Assembly: GCA_021816585.1 (NCBI GenBank)
Contig: JAKAXL010000025.1
Span: 1 to 38,512 of the forward strand
Length of the DNA: 38,512 bases
Origin: Pseudomonadota bacterium
GTDB taxonomy: Bacteria > Pseudomonadota > Gammaproteobacteria > Burkholderiales > Burkholderiaceae_C
Direction: 5' to 3'
Positions 5,697-21,075 of this stretch are shown here, piece by piece. Below the pieces are notes generated by a model that saw only the letters and a list, made by a program, of their open reading frames with translations, made no database searches and was not told the origin of the DNA. How positions within the stretch are numbered: the stretch's first letter is position 1; every line of letters begins with the position of its first letter. The position numbers were made by a program, and so were the translations under genes.

Positions 5697-5809
5697 ATCC
5701 CACCTCCCGGATCTGCGGGGACCCTTCGCGCGCAGGGCGGCCAACCCGGAACATCCCACTTGCCAACCATAGCACTCGGTGCTACCTTTTAAGGGTCGAG
5801 GAGACGGGC

Positions 5810-6616: not shown

Positions 6617-6735
6617 TCCTGGTCGGGGTGAGAGGATTCGAACCTCCGGCCTCTACGTCCCGAATCCATGCGCCTATGGACGTTTTTACTTGGCCCAGTG
6701 CACTATCTAGAATTTCTGGGACATTTTTCGGGACA
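6617..6735 (-). repeat. attL of the newest element (copy D)
   Basis: 6617-6664 is a perfect 48-base match to 24605-24652 in the intact tRNA-Pro gene and ends in the anticodon loop, where sequences diverge. The arm that follows (TCCATG, TATGGACGTTTTTACTTGG, AGAATTTCTGGGACA) carries GGGACA at 6718 and 6730. The recombinase gene starts six bases after the second repeat. Confidence 0.9.
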
Positions 6736-6740: not shown

Positions 6741-7817
6741 ATGGGCGTGTACAAGCGGGAGAACGGCTCCTGGCAGGTCAAGGTGCGCAAGGCCGGGATC
6801 AACCTGAGCAAGATCTTCGCCAGCAAGGCCGAGGCCGACGACTACGAGCGGCAGATCCTCTACGAGATCAGCCGCAAGGCCTACCGCGACCGCCGCGAGG
6901 CCGAGCGCATGACGCTCGGCGCCCTGCTGCGCCGGTACAAGGAGGAAGTCACGCCCACCAAGCGCAGCGCAGGCATCGAATCGGTCAAGCTCGACGTCAT
7001 CCTGCGTGACAAGCATCTCCCGCTGGTGCGCATGTCCGAGCTGACGGGCAAGGACATCGCCGAGTGGCGCGACCGCCGCCTGGAGCATGTCACCGGCGCC
7101 ACGGTCAACCGCGAAATCGACGTGCTGTCGACGGCGATCAACCATGCACGACGCGAATGGGGGGTCAACATCCCCGAGAACCCCGTGCACATGGTCAAGC
7201 GCCCCAAGAAGGCCAACCAGAGAGCCCGCCGCGTAGCCAACGAGGAAGAGCGCTACTTGATCGCGGCACTGACTCCCACCCAACGGCGGGAAGACGGAAC
7301 CTTTGAGAAATCGGCGCGAAACCCGTGGCTTCGCCCATTGGTGCTGCTGGCGATCGAAACCGCCATGCGGCGTGGAGAGTTGCTGGCGCTGGACTGGGAG
7401 CATGTCGACCTGAAGAACAGGACGGCCCACCTGCCGACCACCAAGAACGGCGACGCTCGCACGGTGCCCCTCTCAACGCGCGCCGTGCAAATTCTCAGGG
7501 CCTTACCGGGCGACCACCACACCAACGGGCCTGTGTTCCCAACCACGGCCAACGCCCTGCGCAAGGGATTCACCCGCGCGCTGGCACGCGCGCGGGAGGC
7601 CTACCTGCAGGACTGCGCCCAAGCCGGCACAGCGCCCCGTACGAAGTTCCTGGTGGACGTTCACTTCCACGACACGCGCCACGAAGCTGCGACGCGACTG
7701 TCGAAGAAGCTGAGCAACGTGCTCGAGTTGTCGGCCGTCACGGGGCACAAGGATCTACGGATGCTCCAGCGCTACTACCACCCGGACGCCGCTGAACTCG
7801 CCAAGAAGCTGGGATAG
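6741..7817 (+). CDS. Tyrosine recombinase / integrase
   Basis: 358-residue site-specific recombinase. Order: N-terminal Arm-binding beta domain (MGVYKRENGSWQVKVRKAG), core-binding helices (about 60-155), catalytic domain (165-358). The active site is complete: Arg210 in AMRRGELLALDW, Lys235 in TKNGDARTVPL, His310 and Arg313 in HFHDTRHEA, His336 in TGHKDLRML and the nucleophile Tyr345 in QRYYHP. It lies next to attL, so it is the enzyme expected to recombine the tRNA-Pro 48-bp cores. The GGGACA repeats just upstream are candidate Arm sites and could let it autoregulate. Confidence 0.95.
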   Translation: MGVYKRENGSWQVKVRKAGINLSKIFASKAEADDYERQILYEISRKAYRDRREAERMTLGALLRRYKEEVTPTKRSAGIESVKLDVILRDKHLPLVRMSELTGKDIAEWRDRRLEHVTGATVNREIDVLSTAINHARREWGVNIPENPVHMVKRPKKANQRARRVANEEERYLIAALTPTQRREDGTFEKSARNPWLRPLVLLAIETAMRRGELLALDWEHVDLKNRTAHLPTTKNGDARTVPLSTRAVQILRALPGDHHTNGPVFPTTANALRKGFTRALARAREAYLQDCAQAGTAPRTKFLVDVHFHDTRHEAATRLSKKLSNVLELSAVTGHKDLRMLQRYYHPDAAELAKKLG

Positions 7818-7902
7818 TGATGCGCCGTGCCCTTTGACGTCGGCGGCAAGCGCCCGACATCTCCTGCGAGGAACCTCCGGCGGGCGACACAATGGCCGCA
7901 GA

Positions 7903-7953
7903 TCGGCCGAAGCGGGCGTTGAGCTCATACCGCGCCGGCGGCAGCAATGGTGC
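7903..7953 (-). repeat. Left copy of an inverted repeat flanking the fluoride cluster
   Basis: This 51-base segment, read on the minus strand, matches 21025-21075 on the + strand with only about six differences (shared core CAACGCCCGCTTCGGCCGA). The pair brackets the whole riboswitch-operon-MutS cluster. The rest of 7818-8005 has no gene that can be supported. Confidence 0.7.
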
Positions 7954-8005
7954 GCGCACCGGCATCTTGAACGCGGACATCCAGTACTAGCGAACAGACT
8001 GGCAA

Positions 8006-8034
8006 TTGACGGCGCCGTCCGAGGTCGCTTAAAG
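8006..8034 (+). promoter_or_regulatory. Predicted promoter of the Hyf-like operon
   Basis: TTGACG at 8006-8011 and TTAAAG at 8029-8034, 17 bases apart. The start site would fall near 8041, a few bases before the riboswitch aptamer. Confidence 0.5.
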
Positions 8035-8049
8035 TGACAAACAACGTAT

Positions 8050-8109
8050 GGCGATGGAGTTCGCCACAACCGCCCGGCGGCCACGCTGCCGGTGCTGATG
8101 ACTCCTACC
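8050..8109 (+). ncRNA. Fluoride (crcB-type) riboswitch upstream of the Hyf-like operon
   Basis: Matches the fluoride aptamer closely. P1 is GGCGA/TCGCC (8050-8054, 8061-8065) around TGGAGT. The A-rich joint ACAACCGCC follows, then P2 (CCGGC/GCCGG). The conserved 3' strand is GCTGATGACTCCTACC (8094-8109). The pseudoknot GGAGT (8056-8060) with ACTCC (8101-8105) is perfect. The same ACTCC can pair instead with GGAGT at 8147-8151, which contains the Shine-Dalgarno of the first gene, suggesting translational ON-control by fluoride. A small hairpin, TGCCGC-AACTC-GCGGCA, lies at 8113-8129. This also shows that the long upstream extension of the hyfC reading frame is not protein-coding. Confidence 0.92.
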
Positions 8110-8153
8110 CGATGCCGCAACTCGCGGCAGGCCTCGTGGCTTTGGGGGAGTCG

Positions 8154-9098
8154 ATGTACGACCATCTCGTCGTCCAGCAGATCGCGCAGGTCCTGACCGT
8201 TGCGCTGTTCGCGCCGTTGTTGCACGGTGTAATCGCGACGCTCGAAGAACGCGTGCAGCGCGGCAGCGGGCCGTCGATCTGGCAGCCGTACCGGGACCTG
8301 TACAAGCTCGCCGGCAAGGAAATTGTCGTTCCGTCGACCGCGTCGTGGGTGTTCTGGGCGGCGCCGATTGTCGCCTGCACGGCAATGCTGACGGTGCCGA
8401 TGCTGATCCCGGTGCTGACCGACTACCCGCTGCCGCTGTCGGACATGGGCGACATCCTCGGCGGTGGCCTGATCCTGACCCTGGGCGGATTCGGCATCCT
8501 GCTCGCCGGCCTCGACAGCGGCCACCCCTACGGCGGTCTCGGCTCGAGCCGAGAGGCGATGCTGGCGATCCTCGCCGAGCCGACGCTGATCATGGTTTTC
8601 GTCGGCATCACGCTGCTGGCTCAGGCCATGCTGCCGTTCGTCGTCAACCATCTGCTGGTCGCGCAACCCGCCGTCTTCTGGAGCCCGGCGCATCTGTTCC
8701 TGGTCGCCGCGTTCTTCATCCTGCTGACGGTAGAGACCGAACGACTGCCGATCCACTCGTCGATCCACTACGAGATCTACATGATCGGGGAGGCGCGAAT
8801 TCTTGAGTACTCGGGGCCGCTGCTGGCGCTGCTGAAGTGGTCATCGTGGATGAAGCAGGCGATCCTCTACACCATTTTCCTCAACGTGCTGACGCTGCCC
8901 TGGGGCTTGTCGCACCAGGGCACTGCACTGGGCATTGCCGCGGCCCTGGTCGCACTGCTGGGCAAGTGGTTGGCGCTGGCACTGGTCATGGTGTTCGTCG
9001 ACACCGCGCAGTCGAGACTGCGCTTCTACCGCTACCAGGAGCCGCTGGCGCTTTCGTTCCTGATGGCCGTGCTCGCAGTGATAGCGCGGCAGATCTAA
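8154..9098 (+). CDS. hyfC: HyfC/NuoH-like membrane subunit
   Basis: 314-residue integral membrane protein of the NuoH/HycD/HyfC family, which joins the peripheral redox arm to the ion-pumping arm. Family motifs: GPSIWQPYRDLYKLAGKE after the first helix, LDSGHPYGGLGSSREAM in the middle, the charged loop VETERLPIHSS and YSGPLLALLKWSSWMKQ. The length equals E. coli HyfC. The ATG at 8154 with GGGGGAG just before it is chosen; the longer frame runs through the riboswitch. First gene of a six-gene operon with short gaps. Confidence 0.88.
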   Translation: MYDHLVVQQIAQVLTVALFAPLLHGVIATLEERVQRGSGPSIWQPYRDLYKLAGKEIVVPSTASWVFWAAPIVACTAMLTVPMLIPVLTDYPLPLSDMGDILGGGLILTLGGFGILLAGLDSGHPYGGLGSSREAMLAILAEPTLIMVFVGITLLAQAMLPFVVNHLLVAQPAVFWSPAHLFLVAAFFILLTVETERLPIHSSIHYEIYMIGEARILEYSGPLLALLKWSSWMKQAILYTIFLNVLTLPWGLSHQGTALGIAAALVALLGKWLALALVMVFVDTAQSRLRFYRYQEPLALSFLMAVLAVIARQI

Positions 9099-9111
9099 GC
9101 GCACGCGCACA

Positions 9112-9792
9112 ATGCTGCTCTTCCACCTCGATCCAGTCGCCCAAGCGCTGTTCAGCCTTCTGGCGATCGTCGCGCTTATCCTTTCGTTCGTGATGCTCGG
9201 CTCGCACTGGATGCGAAACCACATCGCCGCGTTCGCCGCCGAGTCGTGGGTGATCGCCGCGCTTTCAGCCGCGATCGGCGTGTACGGGCATTACCCCGAA
9301 TTGCTGTTCATCGCGGCGCTGACCGCGCTGTTTCGCGGCACCTTGCTGCCGTATCTGCTGCTGCGCATCGTGCAGGATCTCAAGCAGAACCGCGAGTTCA
9401 CGCCGCTTCTGCAGCCCTCGAGCAGCATGGTGATCGGCGCCGCGCTGGTCGTATTTTCCTACGCCGTGGCGCACCGACTGAGCGTGCGCATGCAACTGGC
9501 CGACAACATCGCGGTGCTGGCGCTGACGACGATGTTTGCGCTCAAGCTGATCGGTTTCCTGATGCTGGTGCTGCGCGCCGAGGCCGTCAGTTCGATCCTC
9601 GGCCTGCTGGTGATCGAGAACGGCATCTTCCTCGGTTCGCAGATTCTGGTTCCGGGTATGCCCTTGCTGCTTGAGATGGTGATCCTGTTCGACCTGCTGA
9701 TCATTGTTTCGACCTTCGGCATGCTGATCCGCTACCTGCATCGCGAAGTCGGCACGACGAGCAGTCGCGCGCTCACGCGCCTGGTGGGGTGA
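9112..9792 (+). CDS. hyfE: HyfE-like membrane subunit (NuoK-related)
   Basis: 226 residues, predominantly hydrophobic, matching HyfE of hydrogenase-4-type complexes, whose C-terminal part corresponds to NuoK of complex I. Recognisable segments: SWVIAALSAAIGVYGHYPEL, FRGTLLPYLLLRIVQDLKQN, LLVIENGIFLGSQILVPGMP, and MVILFDLLIIVSTFGMLIR near the C-terminus. The glutamate in LVIENGIF is at the position used for proton transfer in NuoK. It starts 13 bases after hyfC and precedes hyfF by four bases. Confidence 0.85.
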   Translation: MLLFHLDPVAQALFSLLAIVALILSFVMLGSHWMRNHIAAFAAESWVIAALSAAIGVYGHYPELLFIAALTALFRGTLLPYLLLRIVQDLKQNREFTPLLQPSSSMVIGAALVVFSYAVAHRLSVRMQLADNIAVLALTTMFALKLIGFLMLVLRAEAVSSILGLLVIENGIFLGSQILVPGMPLLLEMVILFDLLIIVSTFGMLIRYLHREVGTTSSRALTRLVG

Positions 9793-9796
9793 CGCG

Positions 9797-11254
9797 ATGG
9801 CCTGGGACCTGCTCTATGCACTGTTCGCGGTCACGTCGGCGGCGTCCGCCGCATGCTGGCTTTCACGCCACGCACGCGTGGCCGAGGCGATCAACCTGGC
9901 CACCGCAGCGATCGACTTCTTCTTGGCGCTGGCGCTGCTCGCGATCACGCCGACCGCGGGCATCACCGCCCTGCAAGGCTATCTGCTGCTCGACGGTTTC
10001 GGCGTCTGGGTGCTGTTCTGCGTGGCCGTCGTCTACCTGCTGGCGTCGGTCTACGCGGTCGGCTACATGCGCTGGATGCACGGCGCGCAAGCCCGCCTGC
10101 ACCGCTTCTACGCCTTGTTCTCAGCGTTCGCCTTGACGATGTTCGCCGCTCCGGTGCAGAACAACCCTGGCCTGTACTGGATCGCGATTGATTTCACAAC
10201 CATCGTCAGTGCCTTCCTGGTCGGCTTCCAGCGGGCGCCGGAGAGCATCGAGGCGGCGTGGAAATACATCGTGATCGTCTCGGCCGGGCTGGGCCTGGCG
10301 CTGCTCGGCACGGTGCTGTTCTATTGGGCCGGAACCTTCATCGTCGGCCCGGTGTACGAGATGACATGGGCCGGGTTTGCGTCGATCACACCCGGCGCCG
10401 AGCCTGTGCTGCTGCTGCTAGCCTTCCTGCTGGTGCTGGTCGGCTATGGCACCAAGGTCGGCCTGGCGCCGATGCACACCTGGCTGCCCGACGCTCACAG
10501 CGAAGGACCGGCGCCAGTCTCGGCGATGCTGTCGGGCGCGCTGCTCAACTGCGCGATGCTCGGCGTCGAGCGCTACCTGGTCGTGCTGCGCGGCACGTCG
10601 ATTGCCGGAACCGCGCACACCGCGCTGGTCGTGCTCGGCGCGTTCTCGTTGCTCGTGGCCGCGCTGTTCATCACTCGGCAAACGGTGATCAAGCGACTGG
10701 CCGCGTATTCGAGCGTCGAGCACATGGGGGTGATCGCGCTGGGCCTGGGCTTCGGCGGCTCGCTGGGAACCATAGGCGCTCTCTACCATATGCTGAACCA
10801 CGCGCTCGCCAAGTCGCTGGTGTTCTTCGGCGCCGGCAACGCGATGCACGCTTTCGAAAGCCGCGATATCGACCGCATCCGCCGTGTGTTGCGCTTCTTC
10901 CCGCGCTCGGGCGCGATCTGGCTGGCCGGCGCGGTGGCGATCACCGGCGCCCCGCCGTTCGGCCTGTTCCTGTCCGAACTGACGATTCTGCGCGCTGGCA
11001 TGGCCAGCGCCAACGTGTGGGCGGTGTGGCTGATGGGCTTGCTGCTGATCGTGATCTTCGTCGGCTTCCTGGCGAAGTTCCGCGCGATGTACTTCGGTGC
11101 CCGGCCCGAGCACGCGCCGCACTTGCGCCTGGGCGCAGCGCACGTGCTGCCGATGGCCGTCGCGCTGGCAGCCACGCTGGCTCTGGGCCTGTGGTGGCTG
11201 CCGGCGGTCTGGCAACACCTGGCCGCGATCGCGGCACAACTCGGAGCCGCCTGA
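9797..11254 (+). CDS. hyfF: HyfF-like antiporter-type membrane subunit
   Basis: 485-residue polytopic protein of the NuoN/MrpD antiporter family. Proton-path residues are present: Lys220 in GYGTKVGLAPMHTWLPDAHS and Lys339 in MLNHALAKSLVFFG. The usual early glutamate is replaced by Asp132 in AIDFTTIVSAF. AITGAPPFGLFLSELTIL near residue 385 is also typical. It is shorter than E. coli HyfF but appears complete. Its retained charged residues suggest that ion translocation survives although the hydrogenase site is lost. Confidence 0.88.
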   Translation: MAWDLLYALFAVTSAASAACWLSRHARVAEAINLATAAIDFFLALALLAITPTAGITALQGYLLLDGFGVWVLFCVAVVYLLASVYAVGYMRWMHGAQARLHRFYALFSAFALTMFAAPVQNNPGLYWIAIDFTTIVSAFLVGFQRAPESIEAAWKYIVIVSAGLGLALLGTVLFYWAGTFIVGPVYEMTWAGFASITPGAEPVLLLLAFLLVLVGYGTKVGLAPMHTWLPDAHSEGPAPVSAMLSGALLNCAMLGVERYLVVLRGTSIAGTAHTALVVLGAFSLLVAALFITRQTVIKRLAAYSSVEHMGVIALGLGFGGSLGTIGALYHMLNHALAKSLVFFGAGNAMHAFESRDIDRIRRVLRFFPRSGAIWLAGAVAITGAPPFGLFLSELTILRAGMASANVWAVWLMGLLLIVIFVGFLAKFRAMYFGARPEHAPHLRLGAAHVLPMAVALAATLALGLWWLPAVWQHLAAIAAQLGAA

Positions 11255-11255
11255 C

Positions 11256-12776
11256 ATGCGCCACGCCCTGCTGCGCGAACTGGACTGCGCCGAGCTGCCC
11301 GCTGCCGCGGCAGCGCTGGGTGCGGCGGCCGGCGAGCAACCTGGAGCGCACGGCCGTATGCAGTTCGCTTACGCGCTGTGCGCGGCCGACGCACCTCCAC
11401 AGGTGCGCTACGTGGTCAGCCAGGGCCCGGGGCAACCGTATCTGATGTGGCGCACACGTCCGCGCGACGGCGTGCTGCCGAGCTTGGCCGCCACGCTGCC
11501 GCTGTTGGGCTGGTACGAGCGGGAGATCACCGACCTGTATGGGCTGCGCTTCGAGGGGCACCCCGAGCCGTACCCGCTGGTCCTGCACGAGGGCATCGCA
11601 CCGTCGGCGCCGCCGCTGCAAGCGGATCAGGGTCGATCGACGACGCCGCAGCTCGGGCGCTCCGCGCCGCCTGCCGTACCCAGGATGATCGGAGCGGATA
11701 TCCAGCGCCTGCCCTTCGGCCCGGTTCGCGCCGACATCGTCGAATCGGCGCAGTTCCTGTTCTTCTACATTGGCGAAGGCATCCTGCACTATCACCCGCG
11801 GCTCTTTTACAAGCACCGCGGCATGGAAGCACGCTTCGAGGGCGTTGACGAGCGCACCGGCAGCGTGTTGGCCGAGCGTGTCAGCGGCGTCGATTCGGTG
11901 GCGCACGCGCTGGCCTATGCGCAGGCGGTGGAAGCGGCGCTGGGCTGGCGCGCGCCGGCTCGCGCGCGCCATCTGCGAGTGATCCTGGCCGAGCTCGAGC
12001 GTCTTTACAACCATCTGCACTACCTAGGCCAGCTGGCGAAGACGACCACGCTGAAAGTCGGCGAAGCGCAGGGGCTGTGGCTCGAGGAACAGGTCAAGCA
12101 AGTCAACGCGCGCCTCACCGGCAGCCGCCTGCTGCGCGGCATCATCGCGCCCGGAGGACTGCGTCGGGACCTCGACGTCGGCCAGCTCGACGCCTGGCTC
12201 GACGCCTTCGCGCGCGACATCGACGTCTACCTGCGCCTCCTCGAGGACACGCGCAGCCACCTCGACCGCCTGATGAGCACGGGCGTGCTGCCGTGTCAGG
12301 TCGCGTTGGACCAGGGCGCCACCGGCCCGATCGAGCGGGCCAGCGGGCTCGATCGCGACCTGCGCCGCGACCATCCGTATGCGAGCTACGCGCAACTGCG
12401 CATTGCCGTTGCGGTGCAATCGGCGGGCGATGCCCACGCGCGCAGCATGGTGCGCATGGAGGAGATCCGCGAGGCGCTCGCGCTGCTGCGGCAGGCGCTT
12501 GCACGCATCAGACCCGGAGCGGTAGCGCGCCGCGAGGCAGTCGAGGACGCCGACGCCGACGGCGAGGGTCTGGGTTGGGTCGAAGCCACGCGCGGCGGCC
12601 TGCTTTACGCCGTGCACTTCGACGCCGCGCGCCGCAAGCTGGCGCGCGTGAAGATCAAGGAGCCGTCGTTCTCGAACTGGCGAGTGTTTCCGTTCACGGT
12701 TCAGGACAGCAACATGATGGACTACGCGATCAACGAAGCGAGCTTCGGCCTGTCGATCGCCGGTGCGGATCGCTGA
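11256..12776 (+). CDS. hyfG: HyfG/HycE-like large subunit lacking the NiFe cysteines
   Basis: 506 residues. The N-terminal 30-kDa complex-I-like domain (LGWYEREITDLYGLRFEGHP, about 84-104) is fused to the 49-kDa/hydrogenase large-subunit domain. The catalytic motifs are altered. The N-terminal CxxC motif RVCGICxxAH reads R208-V-S-G-V-D-S-V-A-H217, so Ser210 and Asp213 replace the cysteines. The C-terminal DPCxxCxxR motif aligns with SFGLSIAGADR, where Ser500 and Gly503 replace them. The protein ends at that Arg, the point where HycE-type precursors are cleaved, so no maturation tail exists. No NiFe centre can form; it is an Ehr-type large subunit. Its ATG follows the hyfF stop by one base. 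Confidence 0.9.
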   Translation: MRHALLRELDCAELPAAAAALGAAAGEQPGAHGRMQFAYALCAADAPPQVRYVVSQGPGQPYLMWRTRPRDGVLPSLAATLPLLGWYEREITDLYGLRFEGHPEPYPLVLHEGIAPSAPPLQADQGRSTTPQLGRSAPPAVPRMIGADIQRLPFGPVRADIVESAQFLFFYIGEGILHYHPRLFYKHRGMEARFEGVDERTGSVLAERVSGVDSVAHALAYAQAVEAALGWRAPARARHLRVILAELERLYNHLHYLGQLAKTTTLKVGEAQGLWLEEQVKQVNARLTGSRLLRGIIAPGGLRRDLDVGQLDAWLDAFARDIDVYLRLLEDTRSHLDRLMSTGVLPCQVALDQGATGPIERASGLDRDLRRDHPYASYAQLRIAVAVQSAGDAHARSMVRMEEIREALALLRQALARIRPGAVARREAVEDADADGEGLGWVEATRGGLLYAVHFDAARRKLARVKIKEPSFSNWRVFPFTVQDSNMMDYAINEASFGLSIAGADR

Positions 12777-12789
12777 ACGAGGAGCTGCG

Positions 12790-13608
12790 ATGCCATTATG
12801 GACATGGTTCGGCTTGCGCGAAGGCCTTGGCACGACGCCGTGGCCGCAGCGCCCGGGTCCCGACGGCCAGGACGGCGTGCTCGGCCTGCCGCGCGTCGAT
12901 GCGTCGCGCTGCGCCGGCGCACCGTGCACCGACTGCGCCGCGGCGTGCCCGGCCGGCGCGATCACCGTCGAGCACGATTCGCCAAGCCTGGATTACGCGC
13001 GCTGCGTCGGCTGCCAGCTGTGCACCGAGGTCTGCCCGCAAGGCGCCTTCAGCGTCAGTCGCGACTGGGCCTTCGGGGTGCGCGGGCGCGCCGACCTGCT
13101 CAGGGCCGGCCACCCGCAGCTGGCAGCGGCGCGCGACGGCGACGAGGCCGGCGCGGCGGCGCTGGCCGTAGAATTCAACGCCTTCGGCCACAGCCTGCAT
13201 ATCCGCCATGTCGACACCGGATCGTGCAACGGCTGCGAAAGCGAACTGCAGGCGCTGCTCAATCCCTTCTACAACCTGCACCGGCTCGGCATCTTCTTCA
13301 CGCCTTCGCCGCGCTTCGCCGACCTGCTGCTGGTAACGGGGCCGGTGACCGAGGCCATGCGCGAGCCGCTGCTGCGCACCTGGGAAGCGATGCCTCAGCC
13401 GCGCTGGGTCATGGCACTGGGCACCTGCGCCACCGGCGGCGGCACCAGCGGCGGCGGCTACGCCTGCCACCGTGGGCTGGAAGGTGTGTTGCCGGTCGAC
13501 CTGTGGCTGCCGGGCTGCCCCCCCAACCCGGCGGCCATCATCGAAGCGCTGCTGGTGCTGCTGCGTCGGCGCGAGCCGCGGGTGCGCGGAGGCGAACATG
13601 CCCGCTGA
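12790..13608 (+). CDS. hyfI: Ferredoxin-domain fused to HyfI/HycG-like small subunit
   Basis: 272-residue iron-sulfur protein. Residues 41-82 hold two 4Fe-4S motifs: C41-x4-C46-x2-C49-x3-C53 and C72-x2-C75-x2-C78-x3-C82-P. From about 128 it is a NuoB/HycG domain with all four ligands of the proximal cluster: C146-N-G-C149, C213 in ALGTC and C243 in LPGCPPNP. The ferredoxin part corresponds to a separate protein (HycF/HyfH) in E. coli, so this is a fusion. The ATG at 12790 has GAGGAG upstream. The electron wire is intact although the partner has no NiFe site. Confidence 0.9.
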   Translation: MPLWTWFGLREGLGTTPWPQRPGPDGQDGVLGLPRVDASRCAGAPCTDCAAACPAGAITVEHDSPSLDYARCVGCQLCTEVCPQGAFSVSRDWAFGVRGRADLLRAGHPQLAAARDGDEAGAAALAVEFNAFGHSLHIRHVDTGSCNGCESELQALLNPFYNLHRLGIFFTPSPRFADLLLVTGPVTEAMREPLLRTWEAMPQPRWVMALGTCATGGGTSGGGYACHRGLEGVLPVDLWLPGCPPNPAAIIEALLVLLRRREPRVRGGEHAR

Positions 13609-15613
13609 AATCCCCGTCGTCGGGCCCGTGCTGGCGGCGTTCGCGCTGGCCGCACTGGCCTGGCTCGCAGCGCTGGTCGTCGACCTCGTGCGCAGCTCAG
13701 CGTTGCCGCGTGCCATGCTCGCGCTGGGTTGTGCGAGTGCTGCGCTGGGCGCCTTGTGGGCGCTCCCGGCAGGCAGTGCGCTGATCACCCTGCTGCAGTT
13801 CGGCGGCTGGCCGGTGCAATGGCACGCCGATGCCGCGGCGCTGTGGTTGATGCTCCCGGCATTGCTGCCGGCGCTGTTCGCCTGCCTGCTCGGCGGCGCG
13901 GCAGGCGCGCGCGGCTGGGCGGCCGGTGCCGCGATGTCGCTGCTCGGCGCGCTGGGTGTGTTCACGCTGTACGACGGCGCCAGTCTGCTCATCGCCTGGG
14001 AGCTGATGGGCTTGGGCGGCGCCGTCATGCTGCTGGCCGAACACCGCAACACCCAGGCCGGGCACGACAACCTGTTCATGCTCGCGATGCTCGAAGTCGG
14101 CAGCGTCGCGCTGCTGCTGGCCGTGGCCACGTTCGGCGGCGACCTCGGCTTTGCCAGCTACGCGCGGCAATGGGGCACGCTGGCCCCGGCGGCGGCGTTT
14201 GGCGTGGGCCTGCTGTGGCTGCTCGGTTTCGGCGCCAAACTTGGTTTGCTGCCGTTCTACGAGTGGTATCCGGGCGCCTACGGCAGCGGCAGCGGCGCCA
14301 GCGGCGCGCTGATGTCGGGCGTGGTGATGAACGCCGCCTATTTCGCGCTGGGACGCGCGTTGCTGCGCTGGATGGGCACGCCGCCGTGGCTGGGCGGGTT
14401 CGGCGTCGTCGTGCTCGCCGGCGGCGTGCTTAGCGCGATGCTGGCGATCCTGTACGCGTTCCAACAAAACGACTGGCGGCGACTGCTGGCTTTCTCCTCG
14501 GCCGAAAACGCCGCCGTCGCGGTGACCGCACTGGGCGCTGCGTTGGTGTTCCGCGCCGGTGGTCACGACGCACTGGCCGCACTCGCGTGGATCGTTGGCA
14601 TGCTGCACCTGATGGGGCACAGCCTGGCCAAGGGTGCGCTGTTTCTCGCCGCGGACGCGGCCGCCGCGCTGCAGGGTAACCATCAACTGCGGCAGAGCGC
14701 GATCCTGCGCCAGGCGCCGCTGACCGTCGGCGTCGGCGCGGTACTCGCCGCGATGAGCCTGGCGGCGATGCCGCCGACTGCGGGGTTTGTCAGCGAGTGG
14801 TACCTGTTCCAGACGCTGTTCCACGACTTCGCGTTGGCCGGGGACGGCTCGCGCATCGCGCTGGCGCTGGCCGGCGCCGGACTGGCGCTGACCGCCGCGG
14901 CGGCGCTGGCGACCATGGTCAAACTGGTGGGCGTCGGCCTGCTCGGTCAGAACGAACCGCACGCGGCGCAGCACCGCCGGCACCAAGGGCGGATCGGCGG
15001 CGTGTTGCGCGCCGCCGTGCTGATCACCGGGCTGGCGGTGCCGGCATTCGCGGTCGGCCTGATCGCCTGGCTGCCGTCGATGGGCGCCGCGTCATGGCTG
15101 CAGCCCGACGCGCCGGCGCACATGGTGAACGGCTGGCTGTTGGTGCCGCTGTCGGCCGGCTTCGCGTTCATCTCGCCGGCCAAATTGTTGATCGCGGCAC
15201 CGCTGCTTGCGCTGTTGCCGATCGCGCTGCTGTGGGCCAGACGTCGCTATCCGGTGCGGCGCGCGCCGATCTGGTGTGGGGGCGAGGACTATGCGGCGCA
15301 TGCCGGAGCGACCACCGCGCTGGCATTTTCCAACGCGCTGCGCGTCTTCTACAGCTTCGTCTACCGACCGACCAACGCGGTGTCGCGCCAGTTCGAAGGT
15401 CCACGCTACTTTCTCAAGGAGCTGCAGTTCGACTACGACCAGGCTCCCGTTTTCGGTCGCCTGCTGTTCGAGCCCGTGGTACGCGCCGTGCGCTGGTTCA
15501 GCGAGCGCCTTCGCTTCCTGCAAAACGGTCTGATGAACGCATATCTGGCTTACATCGGTTTGCTGCTGCTGATCATTCTCGCGCTGGCCCTCGTCTGGAC
15601 CCCACCTGCGTGA
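13598..15613 (+). CDS. hyfB: HyfB-like antiporter-type membrane subunit
   Basis: 671 residues, the size of E. coli HyfB, and the last gene of the complex (in E. coli hyf it is near the front). Antiporter-family residues are kept: Glu135 in LIAWELMGLGG, Lys214 in FGAKLGLLPFYEW, and a later lysine in HLMGHSLAKGALF. SLAAMPPTAGFVSEWYLFQ is the expected gating-loop helix. The C-terminal region (IWCGGEDYAAHAGATTALAF, FSERLRFLQNGLMNAYLAYI) is typical of HyfB. The ATG overlaps the hyfI stop by 11 bases with GGAGG ahead of it. hyfA, hyfD and the hyfJ/R accessory genes are absent. Confidence 0.9.
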   Translation: MPAEIPVVGPVLAAFALAALAWLAALVVDLVRSSALPRAMLALGCASAALGALWALPAGSALITLLQFGGWPVQWHADAAALWLMLPALLPALFACLLGGAAGARGWAAGAAMSLLGALGVFTLYDGASLLIAWELMGLGGAVMLLAEHRNTQAGHDNLFMLAMLEVGSVALLLAVATFGGDLGFASYARQWGTLAPAAAFGVGLLWLLGFGAKLGLLPFYEWYPGAYGSGSGASGALMSGVVMNAAYFALGRALLRWMGTPPWLGGFGVVVLAGGVLSAMLAILYAFQQNDWRRLLAFSSAENAAVAVTALGAALVFRAGGHDALAALAWIVGMLHLMGHSLAKGALFLAADAAAALQGNHQLRQSAILRQAPLTVGVGAVLAAMSLAAMPPTAGFVSEWYLFQTLFHDFALAGDGSRIALALAGAGLALTAAAALATMVKLVGVGLLGQNEPHAAQHRRHQGRIGGVLRAAVLITGLAVPAFAVGLIAWLPSMGAASWLQPDAPAHMVNGWLLVPLSAGFAFISPAKLLIAAPLLALLPIALLWARRRYPVRRAPIWCGGEDYAAHAGATTALAFSNALRVFYSFVYRPTNAVSRQFEGPRYFLKELQFDYDQAPVFGRLLFEPVVRAVRWFSERLRFLQNGLMNAYLAYIGLLLLIILALALVWTPPA

Positions 15614-15729
15614 AGACGCCATGAAACAACCGGGAGGCACGCCAATGCCCTGACGTCATCGATTCCACGGTGAAGCTTTGGGCTGCACCGCGCAGTACAG
15701 CCCACCTTTCTGCGTCCACGACCTCGATC

Positions 15730-16113
15730 ATGACCTTCGTCTACATCGCCCTTTTTGCCATCGTCGGCGCCTTTGCGCGCTATGGCCAGACCCTCGCCGT
15801 GCAGGGTTTCCTCGGCCGTGACTTCCCGTTCGCAACGCTTTCCATCAACATCCTTGGCTCGTTCCTGATGGGCTTCCTGTTCTTCGAAACCCTCGAGCGC
15901 ATCGAACTCAATCCGGCGCTGCGCACCGGCTTGCTGACCGGCGGGCTCGGCGCCTACACGACGTTCTCGACCTTCTCGCTCGAAACCCTGAACCTGATGG
16001 AGAACGCGCAGTGGATCAAGGCCGCCCTTTACGTGGGTGCATCGGTGGTGCTTTCGATCGCTGCGGCGATCTTCGGCGCCTACCTTTCACGCAACCTCGG
16101 AGTCCAGCGATGA
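15730..16113 (+). CDS. crcB: CrcB/FluC fluoride channel
   Basis: 127-residue four-helix membrane protein of the Fluc family, dual-topology fluoride-specific channels. Motifs: GAFARYGQTL near the start, INILGSFLMGFLFF (the conserved Asn lines the pore), GGLGAYTTFSTFSLETL (the Phe-box and central Na+ region) and a final helix. It sits 116 bases after hyfB in the same direction, and its stop overlaps the next ATG. Together with the fluoride riboswitch at the head of the operon it makes fluoride detoxification the likely purpose of the cluster. No separate riboswitch was found in the gap before it. Confidence 0.93.
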   Translation: MTFVYIALFAIVGAFARYGQTLAVQGFLGRDFPFATLSINILGSFLMGFLFFETLERIELNPALRTGLLTGGLGAYTTFSTFSLETLNLMENAQWIKAALYVGASVVLSIAAAIFGAYLSRNLGVQR

Positions 16114-16424
16114 AATCCGTCACCATGGCTCGCATCTACATCAAGGAAGGCGACAAGGTCCAGGGCCACAACTTGATGCAGGAAATCTTCCACCTGCTGC
16201 ACAGCGACCAGAAGGTCCACGGCGTCACCGTGTTCCGCGGCATAGCCGGCTTCGGCAGCCACGGTGAGGTCCACGCCGACGACCTGCTGCGCCTCACCGT
16301 CCACCTGCCATTGGTCATCGAGTTCTACGACGACCCGGAAGTCGTCGCCGCGGTTTTGCCGCGCATCCAGCAGATGGTTCCGGGCGGCCACATTGTGTCG
16401 TGGTCGGCCCAGTGCGGCGCCTGA
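16110..16424 (+). CDS. DUF190 family protein
   Basis: 104-residue protein of the DUF190 family, which has a PII-like fold: ARIYIKEGDKVQGHNLMQEI, GVTVFRGIAGFGSHGEVHAD, LPLVIEFYDDPEVVAAVLP. Members are often encoded next to crcB; their biochemical role is unknown. The ATGA overlap with crcB indicates co-translation and suggests an accessory or sensing partner of the channel. Cytoplasmic, with no signal or membrane segment. Confidence 0.88.
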   Translation: MKSVTMARIYIKEGDKVQGHNLMQEIFHLLHSDQKVHGVTVFRGIAGFGSHGEVHADDLLRLTVHLPLVIEFYDDPEVVAAVLPRIQQMVPGGHIVSWSAQCGA

Positions 16425-16449
16425 GTTTGGCTCGTCGAGGAGACTGCGC

Positions 16450-17064
16450 ATGCATATCGTTCTGACGCGACACGGAGAAGTCGAGGGCATCGACCCGCCG
16501 CGCTTTCGCGGTCGCATGGAACTCGAGCTGACTGAAGCCGGTCGCCGCCAGGCCCAGTCCCTGGGCACAGCCGTGGCGCGCCAGTTCAAGCCCGACGCCG
16601 TGCTGACCAGCCCGATGAAACGCTGCCGCGACACCGGGGCCGCGATCGGGCATGCCTGCGGCGTCACCCCCGTCGTCCTGCCAGGGATCGACGATTTCGA
16701 TTACGGTCAATGACAGTGGATGAGCCACGCGCAGGCCCAGGCCGAGCACCTACGCGCCTACGAGCTGTGGAAGCGATCCCCGCAGTGGATGCGCTTCCCC
16801 GGAGGCGAATCCCTGCAGGACGTCGCGCTGCGCACGACCGATGCGCTGCGCAGCCTGTGGTCGCAGCATCACGACGGCACCGTGGTGCTGGTCGCGCACG
16901 ACAGCGTCAACCGGGTCGTGCTGCTCCACGCGCTGGATCTGCCGCTGTCGGCCTACTGGCGCATCGAGCAGGAGCCGTGCTGCATCAACGAGTTGTTCGT
17001 CGATGTCGACGGCACCGTCAAGCTGTTGCGCCTGAACGATGCGTCGCATCTGCAGCCAAGGTAA
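16450..17064 (+). pseudogene. Histidine phosphatase (phosphoglycerate-mutase superfamily), interrupted by in-frame TGA
   Basis: The reading frame encodes a full histidine phosphatase: RHG motif in HIVLTRHGEVEG, the RCRDTG region, then VLVAHDSVNRVVLLHAL with the second catalytic His. A TGA at 16711-16713 splits it in the same frame. The surrounding residues, DFDYGQ-stop-QW, align with the family motif D-Y/F-G-x-W, so a TGG to TGA change at the conserved Trp explains the stop. An internal ATG at 16720 could restart the second half, but that half lacks the RHG histidine. Neighbours are crcB-DUF190 upstream, in the same direction. It might be a true mutation or a sequencing error. Confidence 0.8.
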
Positions 17065-17069
17065 ACCGC

Positions 17070-17095
17070 GCGGCAGGCGAAGCATGCCCTGCCGC
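17070..17095. terminator. Possible bidirectional hairpin between convergent genes
   Basis: 8-bp stem GCGGCAGG / CCTGCCGC with a 10-base loop, placed between the end of the phosphatase gene and the end of the MutS-like gene. It has no T tract, so termination activity is uncertain. Confidence 0.35.
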
Positions 17096-17157
17096 CTGCC
17101 GGCGCGGTCGCGGCAGCGCGAGCCGGACCGCCCGCGTGCGATGGTCACGCGCTGCGC

Positions 17158-18729
17158 TCAACGATCCGTGCCATCGCGGGCAAGGGGCGGCGCGTCACCA
17201 CCGAACAACTCGGCATAGACATCAGCGCTAAAACTCGTATCCAATGCGGCACCGACTTCGAGCCTGTAGCTGCGAACCCCTCGCTCGGCACGTGGCGCGC
17301 GCAGGAACAGCGCATCGCCGCGCCGCGCAGACGCCAAGCGCCGCGCCGCGTCGAACAGGTGCGTGACCATGTACACCGCGATGTCGCGTTCGCGAAACGC
17401 TTCGACGACATCGAGCAGGAGTTGTGAACCCTCGCGCTCGTTGGTCGACGCGAACGATTCGTTGGACAGCCACAGCGCGCCGGGGCCGATCCAGTCGGCG
17501 ATCGCGCTGATGCGCACCAGTTCCTCGTCGAGCTTGCCGCCGCGCATCGCGGCGTCCTCCTCGCGCTTGTGGTGGGTGTAGATTCCGCATCGCATGCCAC
17601 CGGCGTAATTGCGCGCGGCGACGAACATGCCGGCCTGGAACATCAATTGCGCCAGTCCGAGCGCACGCAGCAAAGTCGACTTGCCGCCCTGGTTCGTTCC
17701 GGTGACCACGATCAGCAGCGCCGCTGCGGCATTGACGTCGTTGTCCGCCGGCGCTCGCCCCAGCGTCAGCGCCAGCGTCGGGTCACGCAGCGCGCTGGTG
17801 CGCAACTGCAGCGCGTCATCGCCGATCTCCGGCATGCAAGTCGCCACGTCGAGCGCAGCCAGGCGCTCGTGCAGGCGCACGCAGCCGAGTAGAAAGGCAA
17901 GTTCGCCGCGCAAGGTGTCGAGAAAGGCAAAGACATGCTCGGTGGCCTGGGCCAGCGCGTTGGCCACCTCGTTGATCGCGCGGTCGCCGATCTCGGACAG
18001 AGCCCGCGCGCCAGCCTCGTCTCGAGGATGAAGACGGAACGCGAACTGCGGAGCCGCCTTGCCCAGCAACCTGGCCCACCAGTTCACACGCTCGCCGCCA
18101 CCGACGTAAAGCACCTGCGTGCCAATGTGGTTTCCAGCACCGAGCGATGCGCCGAACAGCATGCCGTCGCGAAAGCCCAGCGCGGCGAGCTCCGAACGGG
18201 CCTCGGCCATCCACGGCTCGTCGAGTTCGGTACGCAGCTGCGCGAACAGGTCGCGGAACGCAACCGACGCGAAGGAGGATTCGAGCGCCAGCGCATGCTT
18301 GCGCAGGCGCTGCAAATACACCAGCAACGCCTGCAGCATGTCGATGGCACTGTGCAAGGTCCAGCCCGGGTGCTGCGCGAGCAGATCGAGACTGACGATG
18401 TGCTGTTTGCGGCTTTCGATCGACTCGATCACCAAGTCGTACAACTCGCGTACTTCGGCAGGGTGCGCGAGTGCATCGCGCAGTGCGGCCTGGCGGTGCA
18501 GGACCCGCGCCGCATCGCCTGTGCCGCTGGCCGCAGCAAGCACCGCCTGTGCCACCTTGCGCACATAGTCGTCGCCAGCGGCCATCGCCTCGACCAGCTT
18601 GTCGACTTCGAGATCCCGTGCCACGTCCGGCCACTGCGGCGGGGATAGGACAGACGCCGGGGGGAGCGGCGTTTGCCCGCCCGCTCCGGGAGACGAGGCG
18701 GAAGGGGGGTCGAGCAGATTCGGCGTCAT
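17158..18729 (-). CDS. MutS-like ATPase 1
   Basis: 523 residues with a MutS core/lever region (about 40-330) and a C-terminal MutS ATPase domain, but without the mismatch-binding domain I of true MutS. Walker A is GTNQGGKS (344-351). Walker B reads ALWLSNESFASTNEREG, with Asn423-Glu424 where MutS has Asp-Glu. The N-terminal 30 residues are proline-rich and low complexity. Its ATG overlaps the stop of the MutS-like gene upstream (ATGA), so the two are co-expressed and may form a heterodimer. It converges on the crcB operon. Surveys of fluoride riboswitches, as I recall, list MutS-like genes among regulated targets. Confidence 0.85.
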   Translation of the reverse strand: MTPNLLDPPSASSPGAGGQTPLPPASVLSPPQWPDVARDLEVDKLVEAMAAGDDYVRKVAQAVLAAASGTGDAARVLHRQAALRDALAHPAEVRELYDLVIESIESRKQHIVSLDLLAQHPGWTLHSAIDMLQALLVYLQRLRKHALALESSFASVAFRDLFAQLRTELDEPWMAEARSELAALGFRDGMLFGASLGAGNHIGTQVLYVGGGERVNWWARLLGKAAPQFAFRLHPRDEAGARALSEIGDRAINEVANALAQATEHVFAFLDTLRGELAFLLGCVRLHERLAALDVATCMPEIGDDALQLRTSALRDPTLALTLGRAPADNDVNAAAALLIVVTGTNQGGKSTLLRALGLAQLMFQAGMFVAARNYAGGMRCGIYTHHKREEDAAMRGGKLDEELVRISAIADWIGPGALWLSNESFASTNEREGSQLLLDVVEAFRERDIAVYMVTHLFDAARRLASARRGDALFLRAPRAERGVRSYRLEVGAALDTSFSADVYAELFGGDAPPLARDGTDR

Positions 18730-20357
18730 CGGGTGATCCTTTGCAGCAGCGCCTCGCGCGTGACCCGGTACTTCTGCGCCAGTGCGCGCGCGTAGGCCTT
18801 ACCGTCGGCGCGGCGCCGGACGACTTTGAACGTGCGCACGGTCGGATCTGCCGCGTCGACCTGCGCGACCAGGCTGACCGTGCCGGCATCGAAGCGCGCA
18901 AGCTCGTCGAGGAACGTGACGAAAATGCAGCGGCAGCCGACATCGCGCAACCTGCCCATCATGCGCTGGCCAAGCCAGACGGCGTCGTCGAGCGACGTCG
19001 ACGAGAACACCTCGTTCATCACAACCACGCTGCGTGCCGTCGCCGCCTCGATGATCGCGCGCATGCGCACCAGGTCGTCCAGCAGCTTGCCGCGCTGGTT
19101 GTCGATGTTCTCGGCGCGTTCGAAGTGCGTCAGAATGCGCTCGGGAAACACCACACGCGCGCTGCGCGCAGCAACGGGAAGTCCCAGCGCCGCGATGTAG
19201 TGCAACTGACCGAAGGTGCGCGCCAGTGTCGTCTTGCCACCGTGGTTGGGTCCCGTGACGACGAGCATGCGTTCGGCACCGCGCAGAGCGAAGTCGTTGC
19301 AGACCACCTTGCTCGGTGTCTTCGCGGCCTGTGCGGCCAGCGCCAGGTCGGCCGCTTCGACTACCTCGACGTCACCTTCGTCGGCAAGCTCGGGCAGGCA
19401 GCTTTCGACGCCGGCTGCGCGCATGCGACGCAGGAAATCCCACCAACCCAAATAGAACACCAGTTCGCCATCCAGGTTCAGCCAGCGCGCATCGGCAAAG
19501 CGCGCGTGCTCTCGCGTGAATTGCTCGAGCCGGGCGAATAGCTTCGGATGCAGCAGCGCGACCCGATCGATGATTTGCGCTTCGATGTGATTCATGTCCG
19601 CTGGCGCTTCGAGCTTTGCTCGATGGTCGCGAACTTCCCCCTGGCGAAAGCGTTCGAAAGTCCTGGCCACCAGCGCGCTGAAGTCCTCGGCTTGTGGGTC
19701 GCGCAGCAACGTGACCCGATCGCCTTCGATGCGCACGGCGTAGCACACGCGGTCGAGTTCTTCGCGCAGTGCTGTGGCCTCAGTGACGAGGCAGGCATGC
19801 GCCGCACCGCCCAGCTCAGCCTGCAGTGCGGCGAGCAGGCGCTGCAGGAGCGGCGCGCGCGGCGCGGCGGCGGCCAACGTGGTGGCGAGCTGGCGCAGCG
19901 CTTCACCGTAGATGCGCGCCGCGTCGACGAACCAACCCTGTGCCTCGATGGCGCTCGCCGTGCGCTCTGCACGGAGCAGGTGCTCGCGCATCGACGCCAT
20001 CGCCAGCTGGAAGCTACGCATGGCCTGAGCCAGCTCGTCGCGCCCTAGGTCGGCCGCAACTTGCTGACGCCGCCGCGCGACCCGCGCATCGGACGGGGCG
20101 CTGACGAACGCCTGTTTCAGCCAGGCGAAGACCTCCCCGCGCCATCGCGCGTCGACCTCCTCGTACCCGTAGCTGTAGGCCTTCGGCTTGCGCGGCTCCA
20201 CACCACCATAGGCGGCATCGAAGATCGCGTCGAGGAACAAGTCGCGAATGAAGTCGTCCTGGTACGTGGGTGGTGCACTTTCGTCGTGCGCGGAGTCGGA
20301 GAGCAGGCTGACGGACGCATCGATGGGCTGGAGTGACCGCGCACTGTCTTCTTGCAT
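18726..20357 (-). CDS. MutS-like ATPase 2
   Basis: 543 residues, first gene of the leftward pair. The N-terminal 350 residues are helical MutS core/clamp-like sequence with no mismatch-recognition domain. The ATPase has Walker A GPNHGGKT (369-376), an HFE motif in ILTHFERAENIDNQRGKL and Walker B VVVMNEVFSSTSLDD, again Asn-Glu rather than Asp-Glu. The ATG at 20357 is preferred over the GTG at 20366 because AGGTGAG sits five bases ahead of it. A fluoride riboswitch lies about 340 bases upstream on the same strand. Confidence 0.84.
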   Translation of the reverse strand: MQEDSARSLQPIDASVSLLSDSAHDESAPPTYQDDFIRDLFLDAIFDAAYGGVEPRKPKAYSYGYEEVDARWRGEVFAWLKQAFVSAPSDARVARRRQQVAADLGRDELAQAMRSFQLAMASMREHLLRAERTASAIEAQGWFVDAARIYGEALRQLATTLAAAAPRAPLLQRLLAALQAELGGAAHACLVTEATALREELDRVCYAVRIEGDRVTLLRDPQAEDFSALVARTFERFRQGEVRDHRAKLEAPADMNHIEAQIIDRVALLHPKLFARLEQFTREHARFADARWLNLDGELVFYLGWWDFLRRMRAAGVESCLPELADEGDVEVVEAADLALAAQAAKTPSKVVCNDFALRGAERMLVVTGPNHGGKTTLARTFGQLHYIAALGLPVAARSARVVFPERILTHFERAENIDNQRGKLLDDLVRMRAIIEAATARSVVVMNEVFSSTSLDDAVWLGQRMMGRLRDVGCRCIFVTFLDELARFDAGTVSLVAQVDAADPTVRTFKVVRRRADGKAYARALAQKYRVTREALLQRITR

Positions 20358-20696
20358 GTTGCTCACCTGCTGGAACAGGGGAACACGACTGGGTCCCCAA
20401 TCCCGGGCACGAGCCGCTGACGACGGTTGCGCTTCGGCATACGCCCGCTGCGCGACAACGTGTCGAGGCTTCGTCCCGCGCCGATCGCGACGGCAGGGTC
20501 AAACGTGCAGGCATCCACGAACGCTCCACCGCGCGAATATTCGCCCGTGCTTCCGCCTTCAATGCGGCCGCTCGATCGCCTGGTTGGATGGGTTGGTGGG
20601 CGAAGAAATGAGCGCCCTGATTCGATGCGCAGCAATGGCACCTCCCGTAAACGGATAGCCTGCTCGACCTGCCCTGCATCTATGCAAGGCATCCGG
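20358..20696 (-). other. Long 5' leader between fluoride riboswitch and MutS-like genes
   Basis: About 340 bases with no recognisable gene. Right after the aptamer is a hairpin CCTTGCAT-AG-ATGCAGGG (one G-T pair, 20672-20689). A 109-codon minus-strand ORF (20363-20692) spans the interval and ends just before the MutS start, but it resembles no family I know and could be chance in GC-rich DNA. The leader may be an expression platform or decayed DNA. Confidence 0.4.
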
Positions 20697-20747
20697 GTAG
20701 ACGTCGTCAGCCGGGAGGCGGTTGGTTCAGGAGGACGTCATCTCCCC
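20697..20747 (-). ncRNA. Second fluoride riboswitch, upstream of the MutS-like pair
   Basis: On the minus strand the aptamer reads GGAG-ATGACGTC-CTCC (P1 and loop, 20745-20730), then TGAACCAACCGCC, a short P2 GCC-TCCC-GGC and the conserved 3' strand GGCTGACGACGTCTAC ending at 20697. The loop GACGTC pairs with the GACGTC of the 3' strand, the fluoride-aptamer pseudoknot. CTGACG replaces the commoner CTGATG. P1 layout is the GGAG-N8-CTCC form. Together with the aptamer at 8050 it means both transcription units of the cluster sense fluoride. Confidence 0.85.
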
Positions 20748-20753
20748 ACTTCG

Positions 20754-20782
20754 ATTACATCACAACTGTTCGTACTGGAGCA
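20754..20782 (-). promoter_or_regulatory. Predicted promoter for the MutS-like transcript
   Basis: On the minus strand an extended -10, TGATGTAAT (hexamer 20759-20754), would start RNA near 20747, exactly at the 5' end of the aptamer. The -35 at 20782-20777 (TGCTCC) is poor. Confidence 0.45.
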
Positions 20783-20921: not shown

Positions 20922-21024
20922 ACAACGCTTCGCACGCTGTGTTGCCGTCTAAGGTCCACATGACCAGTTGGCCCGCGCAGGATGCGCTCGCTCAGGGCGC
21001 CGGCGATTTCGGCGGCCGCTGCCT

Positions 21025-21075
21025 GCACCATTGCGGTCGCCAGCGCGGGATGAGCCCAACGCCCGCTTCGGCCGA
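21025..21075 (+). repeat. Right copy of inverted repeat flanking the fluoride cluster
   Basis: Near-identical, inverted copy of 7903-7953 (shared CAACGCCCGCTTCGGCCGA). It lies just beyond the IS3 fragment. It suggests that 7.9-21.1 kb moved or was inverted as a unit. Confidence 0.7.

Follow-up and report, generated by a model that had tools for sequence, protein, structure and literature searches.

A probable fluoride-resistance module with a nickel-less hydrogenase relative, set between two fluoride riboswitches on an integrative element

Why should riboswitches that bind fluoride stand ahead of genes named after formate hydrogenlyase and MutS? Both kinds of gene occur together in the window analysed here, the whole 38,512 nt of contig JAKAXL010000025.1 (assembly GCA_021816585.1, Burkholderiaceae_C), where they lie between two inward-facing fluoride riboswitches. 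The available portions of Weinberg 2010 (PMC2864571) list mutS, K+/Cl- transport and formate hydrogen lyase among the targets of this riboswitch class, and those of a 2024 review (PMC11139923) give formate hydrogen lyase and read it as part of a metabolic shift. The statement in the first-pass annotation that such genes are listed as separate targets is thus borne out in print. The answer proposed is that the block is probably a resistance module induced by fluoride and carried on an integrative element, and that its hydrogenase-like genes encode a redox-driven proton pump without nickel, resembling the energy-converting hydrogenase-related (Ehr) complexes. Its description as one fluoride-related block on an integrated element is supported by the riboswitch matches, the gene content and a pair of attachment-site (att) repeats.

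An Infernal search of the window (cmscan, all Rfam models) matched both proposed riboswitch sites to family RF01734, each above the gathering score of 34 bits:

8041-8114, plus strand: riboswitch 1 aptamer, RF01734, 51.9 bits, E 9.9e-12
20691-20754, minus strand: riboswitch 2 aptamer, RF01734, 42.2 bits, E 1.5e-08

The P1 stem, the pseudoknot between loop and 3' strand and the conserved 3' end, all noted at the first reading, can be recognised for both aptamers in the Rfam alignments. In riboswitch 1 the loop GGAGU can pair with the 3' strand GACUCC, and in riboswitch 2 the loop GACGUC with the 3' strand GACGUC. The same genome has a third fluoride aptamer (contig C82:35705-35777), upstream of open reading frames (ORFs) whose translations read as crcB and DUF190. 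Outside each riboswitch, a 75-nt inverted repeat (7889-7963 and 21015-21089, 81% complementary) brackets the whole fluoride block.

Two units converge between the riboswitches, which agrees with the first description as far as the identified genes are concerned; many overlapping ORFs lie on both strands besides. Unit 1 (plus strand, 8154-17052) runs from a hyfC-like gene to a histidine phosphatase gene and holds six genes for a complex-I-like membrane complex together with CrcB, DUF190 and the phosphatase. Unit 2 (minus strand, 20366-17161) is a pair of MutS-like ATPases. Together the units would form one fluoride regulon. Starts marked 'chosen' below were set by the analyst.

8154-9098, plus strand: HyfC/NuoH-like membrane subunit; PF00146, E 1e-31 on ORF 8034-9098; start chosen
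9112-9792, plus strand: HyfE-like membrane subunit; NF008556, E 1e-16, under the curated cut-off of the model
9797-11254, plus strand: HyfF-like antiporter-type subunit; PF00361, E 2e-48; ion-path residues retained
11256-12776, plus strand: HyfG-like (NuoC+NuoD) subunit without nickel motifs; PF00346, PF00329; start chosen
12790-13608, plus strand: fused HyfH-HyfI (8Fe ferredoxin and NuoB-like), 12 cluster cysteines; start chosen
13598-15613, plus strand: HyfB-like antiporter-type subunit; PF00361, E 2e-23; NF005086, E 5e-79, under the curated cut-off; start chosen
15670-16113, plus strand: CrcB/Fluc fluoride channel; PF02537, E 1e-26
16011-16424, plus strand: DUF190 protein (ORF; real start probably internal); PF02641, E 7e-27
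16450-17052, plus strand: histidine phosphatase (PGM-like); PF00300 in the first part; matched in one frame by tblastn to a 205-aa relative from locus L091
17161-18729, minus strand: MutSb, MutS-like ATPase; PF00488, E 6e-10
18729-20366, minus strand: MutSa, MutS-like ATPase; PF00488, E 1e-15; AlphaFold (AF2) model similar to MutS and the MutS2 core

The best named families for the Hyf-like subunits are those of hydrogenase 4, all under the family cut-offs. Among solved structures the large subunit, HyfG, matches subunit 5 of E. coli formate hydrogenlyase best, and the first nickel motif is visible there. Neither of the two Cys-x2-Cys nickel motifs is present in any of 95 HyfG-like rows (90 distinct), taken from proteins of at least 380 aa in the window and in loci L091-L103 and L104-L183, with Rhodococcus L100 included. 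As a control, the same patterns were run on 8 outgroup loci, of which 5 have both motifs and 3 (L189-L191) have neither. At the place of the second motif HyfG has a C-terminal tail, mostly [ST]NMMDYAINEASFGL, and other nickel-less complexes end otherwise. The iron-sulphur and membrane parts are conserved. Each of the 12 cluster cysteines of the fused HyfH-HyfI is kept in 85-88 of 88 rows, and twelve is the number expected for three 4Fe-4S clusters. HyfF E/D132, K220, K339 and E394 are kept in 88-89 of 89 rows, and HyfB E135, K214, K345 and E400 in 81-82 of 82; these are presumably the half-channel residues of proton-pumping antiporters. Protein counts include the repeated rows L091/L105, L093/L106, L094/L114, L095/L140 and L165/L167.

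The electron and ion paths thus appear to be retained and the nickel site lost. Because the nickel motifs are absent while the iron-sulphur and antiporter residues are kept, the printed name 'formate hydrogenlyase' is probably wrong for the riboswitch-linked clade. A working hydrogenase was considered for the operon and rejected, as the motifs are missing while the patterns match outgroup loci. Group-4-like subunits without Ni/Fe ligands, accompanied by the antiporter-type HyfB and HyfF, are what is expected of an Ehr complex. The NADH module (NuoEFG) had no match among the operon ORFs scanned with Pfam and NCBIfam. The window's genome also has a second, ordinary nickel-less HyfG (contig C96:24602-25894), with no aptamer nearby.

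The association of this complex with fluoride is best seen in its relatives. HyfG was searched for in 398 genomes from the phylum and 399 from the order, and among the matches listed were five relatives besides the window at 60-78% identity and many at 30-38%. An alignment of 12 HyfG sequences, scanned against the GTDB species genomes, provided a larger sample, the best 80 of at least 472 relatives of any kind (55-78% identity). These 80 were chosen by protein similarity alone, and a covariance model built from 29 aptamers was run over their loci. An aptamer is present on the same strand upstream of hyfG in all 61 relatives (60 distinct) that have at least 4.5 kb of upstream DNA. It lies 3.1-4.4 kb before hyfG, near the start of hyfC. 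With less than 4.5 kb upstream, 9 of 19 have one. Twenty nickel-less control loci, each with at least 6.1 kb upstream and including the second copy of the window's genome, have no aptamer, and CrcB, DUF190, MutS and enolase were each found in none of them (a CLC-F-like and a phosphatase-like match occur in 1/20 each). Rfam's own model was positive in 7/7 loci picked by the analyst from those of the 80 not used in the model, and in 0/7 controls.

Among 80 whole genomes with HyfG-like matches, 28 have an aptamer anywhere, and in 5 of these one lies no more than 6 kb from a HyfG match in the list. These five are four of the five close relatives and genome G405; the contig of the fifth relative begins inside hyfG. 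No aptamer is within 6 kb of any other HyfG match listed for these genomes. A maximum-likelihood tree of 69 chosen rows groups the riboswitch-bearing type in a single clade with support 100. A second such tree, of 46 chosen rows, recovers it with 19 rows and support 100/99, and separates it from both the [NiFe] hydrogenases and the remaining nickel-less, Ehr-like complexes in the sample. Two remote riboswitch-linked rows, from a Mycobacterium plasmid and from G405, join the clade at 100/97, on long branches that make their placement less sure. The Rhodococcus WAY2 plasmid complex (L100) was rejected as a member of the fluoride type, having no aptamer and grouping with the nickel-less controls in the 69-row tree.

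CrcB (43/80) and DUF190 (52/80) are frequent neighbours of HyfG in the related loci. The gene set seen in the window sits together elsewhere too, as 17 of the 29 related loci that span 20 kb or more carry MutSa and 16 carry MutSb. Members of the acid-loving genera Acidithiobacillus, Thiomonas and Acidicapsa are among the best 80 relatives.

How fluoride might switch unit 1 on is suggested by its leader, which has the following feature:

8100-8153, plus strand: likely expression platform; the aptamer 3' strand GACUCC can pair with a Shine-Dalgarno-like GGAGUC before the hyfC start

This pairing appears in the minimum-energy fold of 8041-8165 (z -3.6). It is 8 bp long, a length equalled in 5 of 100 shuffles, and an equal pairing occurs at about the same place in the leaders of L104, L105 and L110. 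Across 68 hyfC leaders the longest pairing averages 6.9 bp, against 5.2 bp in shuffles. Because both use the GACUCC strand, the Shine-Dalgarno pairing and the aptamer pseudoknot are mutually exclusive. Without fluoride, the strand would cover the Shine-Dalgarno stretch and hyfC would be off; with fluoride bound, it would be locked in the pseudoknot, the hyfC start would be freed and the gene would be on. A terminator-like hairpin with a U-run is found in 9 of 71 hyfC leaders, mostly of Burkholderia kin. The fold of the unit 2 leader is less telling (z -1.9).

It is possible to see why a proton pump might be wanted under such control. Hydrogen fluoride (HF) would diffuse into the cell and release H+ and F-, and the F- would leave through CrcB, driven by the membrane potential. 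This cycle admits protons and charge, and therefore the cell would be acidified and uncoupled. The accessible text of the 2024 review likewise has HF entering, acidifying the cell and lowering the proton-motive force, which fluoride export needs (PMC11139923). A fluoride-induced proton pump beside CrcB would restore cytoplasmic pH and membrane potential, and the uncoupling of the membrane by HF/F- cycling would give HF-exposed bacteria a reason to keep the complex. A fluoride-induced redox-driven proton pump thus seems to fit the clade better than a formate hydrogenlyase.

The weakest step of the proposal concerns the MutS-like pair, which would most likely be a remodelling ATPase rather than serve in mismatch repair. 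The two proteins, MutSa and MutSb, are paralogues, aligned by hhalign with a probability of 100 at 25% identity, and their genes are directly adjacent in 20 of the 80 loci. MutS_V is the only Pfam domain in either, and the NCBIfam matches, to MutS2 and KamC, are under the cut-offs. The AlphaFold model of MutSa (pLDDT 82) has the helical lever/clamp and ATPase parts, with MutS and the MutS2 core as best fold matches; the model of MutSb has a pLDDT of 75. At about 520-550 aa the proteins would have no room for the mismatch-recognition and connector domains. The Walker-B aspartate is asparagine in 21/21 aligned MutSa and 21/21 aligned MutSb (invariant columns; N423 and E424 in MutSb). The same Asn-Glu is found in a pair from a Tsukamurella plasmid (L194), beside shikimate-pathway genes, where there is no good aptamer and the best match in 18.6 kb is a partial one (E 0.03). 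The asparagine is therefore a family trait and not proof of a role in fluoride stress. The PDB contains an E. coli MutS with the D693N substitution, 3k0s, which is listed among the fold matches of MutSa. D693 is presumably the Walker-B aspartate and binds magnesium. If so, one may speculate that the pair suits conditions in which magnesium-fluoride complexes poison ATPases.

The MutS pair also occurs without Hyf in the stretches read of plasmids from Klebsiella, Rhodococcus and Rubrobacter. Two Rfam-grade aptamers are present in the Klebsiella stretch; the other two stretches have aptamer matches to the custom model only, that of Rhodococcus being 5.5 kb off, before crcB-like genes. The convergent layout of the window holds there and not as a general rule, since 4 of 29 MutSa placements relative to HyfG are convergent, with 21 on the same strand and 4 upstream/opposite (repeated contigs counted). 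In the related locus L091 a 451-aa ORF, which reads as cyclopropane-synthase-like, stands between the homologue of riboswitch 2 and the MutS pair. A remnant of that gene between riboswitch 2 and MutSa was rejected for the window, where no tblastn match was found. Two ORFs were also rejected as genes, one at 16710-17231 that overlaps the histidine phosphatase in a different frame, and one of 109 aa after riboswitch 2 that has no Pfam family and begins inside the aptamer. The phosphatase frame itself has a single in-frame stop, near 16711, which may be genuine or an assembly error.

That the block belongs to an integrated element, as first proposed, is upheld by an integrase gene and a direct repeat at the 3' end of a tRNA gene:

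6617-6664, plus strand: att-like copy of the 3' half of tRNA-Pro (distal element end); exact 48-nt repeat of 24605-24652
6741-7817, plus strand: tyrosine integrase; PF00589, E 6e-25
24605-24652, minus strand: att-like 3' half of the intact tRNA-Pro (cgg; gene 24608-24684)

The exact repeats are about 18 kb apart and enclose the fluoride block and the integrase. Further att-like tRNA-Pro copies to the left of the element, at 2508-2555 (96%) and 3478-3525 (92%), suggest older, serial insertions at one tRNA. The chromosomal flank matches over 800 nt in 26 of 28 genomes of the genus, the window's included, and by a short match only in the other 2, while the HyfG type (E 1e-60) is found in 5 of the 28, again with the window's. 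Because of this difference the fluoride module is taken to be accessory and probably mobile. Each of the other four genomes with the HyfG type has an aptamer upstream of hyfC, and in G767 and G790 the cluster is on one contig with the same tRNA-Pro, about 35 kb away. The G767 and G769 contigs are the same contigs as loci L110 and L107, respectively. Islands linked to tRNA genes were rejected as a general rule, with tRNA genes in 2 of 57 related loci, one of them doubtful (inside hyfG). Other features nearby are a RelE-type toxin gene (5591-6217) left of the element, a gene for a NERD-domain (nuclease-related) protein (23090-24403) close to its tRNA end and, at 28964-29215, an 84-nt unit in three tandem copies, two of them identical.

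Several observations weigh against a fluoride-induced proton pump as the purpose of the block. No electron donor or acceptor is known for the complex, the operon showing neither an NADH module nor a formate dehydrogenase, so that a working pump could not be claimed from sequence, and the quinone residues of complex I are not evident on a plain reading. The strand switch is modest in single leaders: pairing exceeds expectation in 59 of 68, and in 25 of the 68 its length is matched by no more than 5 of 100 shuffles; the close leaders of L109, L112, L113, L115 and L116 have 5 bp only. An aptamer is within 1.2 kb upstream of MutSa in 17 of 28 cases, and 5 of the other 11 are at a locus end. Paraburkholderia, Labrys and Pollutimonas, which are not known as acidophiles, are also among the best 80 relatives of the clade. 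Finally, of 7 genomes with the operon, 5 also have HypD, and the window's own has two copies of it. HypD would suit a true formate hydrogenlyase or hydrogenase 4, induced because fluoride blocks glycolysis and the cell turns to fermentation, as would the sub-cut-off hydrogenase-4 families, the solved E. coli match and the accessible review text (PMC11139923). That explanation is nevertheless extremely improbable, given nickel motifs that are missing in 95/95 rows and found by the same patterns in 5/8 outgroup loci, and, for the first motif, in the solved E. coli subunit itself. The gene tables of L098, L101 and L103, which are incomplete, name neither a formate dehydrogenase nor a maturation gene, with no search for the former elsewhere in the genome, and genome G568 (99% complete) has the Hyf-like operon and no HypD. 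Absence of HypD was rejected as proof of a non-hydrogenase, given the 5 of 7 genomes that have it. The complex might instead export fluoride or HF itself, as a primary redox-driven pump, for which its constant tie to fluoride riboswitches, the distinct [ST]NMMDYAINEASFGL tail in place of a nickel motif and the frequency of CrcB and DUF190 as neighbours could be cited. This too is quite unlikely, as F- export is already done by CrcB, the kept residues are presumably those of proton-pumping antiporter subunits and no fluoride site can be named. In its particular form, a former nickel catalytic site closed by the near-invariant tail and taking part in redox-driven expulsion of F- or HF, it is a long shot; if true, it would be the first primary, redox-powered fluoride pump, a relative of complex I and hydrogenases turned into a dedicated fluoride machine.

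For the MutS-like pair, repair of fluoride-linked DNA damage would be in keeping with MutS domain V and with the DNA damage suggested in the available portion of Weinberg 2010 (PMC2864571). The short proteins, the MutSa model that best matches the MutS and MutS2 core and the asparagine in every aligned Walker B point away from it, and such a role is rather unlikely. It is also conceivable that the genes only travel together on mobile elements and that their linkage has no functional meaning, to which the element ends and the sporadic presence in 5/28 genus genomes would be suited. However, aptamer and operon stay linked in differing surroundings across Proteobacteria and Acidobacteria and also, at a greater distance, on a Mycobacterium plasmid, which makes chance company highly unlikely. 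A resistance module with a redox-driven proton pump is preferred as the reading of the block.

Fluoride islands are also found on plasmids, one of the Hyf-bearing plasmids being predicted to be conjugative, and some carry many switches. A predicted conjugative plasmid of Burkholderia cenocepacia has 11 fluoride aptamers in a 37-kb stretch, a B. multivorans plasmid has 9 in 33 kb and a Mycobacterium branderi plasmid has 4 in 31 kb. Six aptamers lie in 21 kb of Ancylobacter dichloromethanicus (L157). Such stacking of up to 11 fluoride riboswitches was not met in the literature searched, in which no search was aimed at it. A census took in 187 aptamers, those of the window, of six plasmid loci and of 79 related loci, and recorded the first query gene within 700 nt. 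It gave HyfC 71 times, a figure skewed by the way of choosing loci, then MutSa 17, DUF190 12, enolase 12, CLC-F 11, CrcB 9, Ppa 3, a dynamin-like gene 3 and others 7; 42 had no query gene. On the M. branderi plasmid a fluoride riboswitch (L101:9417-9477, minus strand) is ahead of PE/PPE/WXG100 genes, an unexpected target. Aptamers at L142:5837, L125:856, L125:2454 and L105:17107 precede unusual ORFs, read from their sequences as glutamine synthetase, dihydroxy-acid dehydratase and cyclopropane-fatty-acid-synthase-like.

The proposal would turn a puzzling entry in target lists, 'formate hydrogen lyase', into a testable idea, namely a nickel-less, complex-I-like proton-pumping complex for fluoride stress, and it suggests, for one branch of the hydrogenase-related complexes, a function defined through its riboswitch. 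In the literature searched, mostly without subscription papers, the dedicated clade, its misnaming and the bundling of targets were not found, and nothing joined energy-converting hydrogenase-related complexes with fluoride or, apart from the mutS target of Weinberg 2010, fluoride riboswitches with MutS. Hydrogenase came up beside fluoride riboswitches in an E. coli transcriptome study. A fluoride riboswitch regulon was reportedly described by Baker in 2012. The parts are known separately, in the accessible texts, as an aptamer class with mutS and 'formate hydrogen lyase' targets (PMC2864571) and as mobile fluoride islands (PMC5533749). The block shares that aptamer class and both targets with the regulon of Weinberg 2010 and differs from it in having a separate nickel-less clade, with a switch in every testable case, and several targets bundled in one island.

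Island GI3 of Enterobacter cloacae FRM, as described in the available text (PMC5533749), was acquired horizontally and has a fluoride riboswitch, crcB, enolase, pyrophosphatase and phosphoglycerate mutase, and induction and knock-outs were demonstrated there. It resembles the present block as a mobile island with a fluoride riboswitch and crcB. The main text of that paper does not contain 'MutS', 'mismatch' or 'hydrogenase', and it reports one riboswitch where the islands here have 2-11. The MutS-like pair shares MutS domain V, the sub-cut-off NCBIfam matches and, for MutSa, a MutS2-core-like model with MutS2/KamC-type ATPases, from which it differs in being a pair of paralogues with Asn-Glu in Walker B and no second Pfam domain. 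Closest to the Hyf-like complex are the Ehr complexes, defined in the accessible part of their description by group-4-like subunits, the lack of Ni/Fe ligands and antiporter-type subunits (PMC6349859), a definition that fits the complex here. Compared with Ehr it is an operon with no formate dehydrogenase partner named nearby in those three incomplete gene tables. From the sampled nickel-less, Ehr-like rows, which may be the published Ehr, it is separated by a clade of its own, a different C-terminal tail and the fluoride riboswitch.

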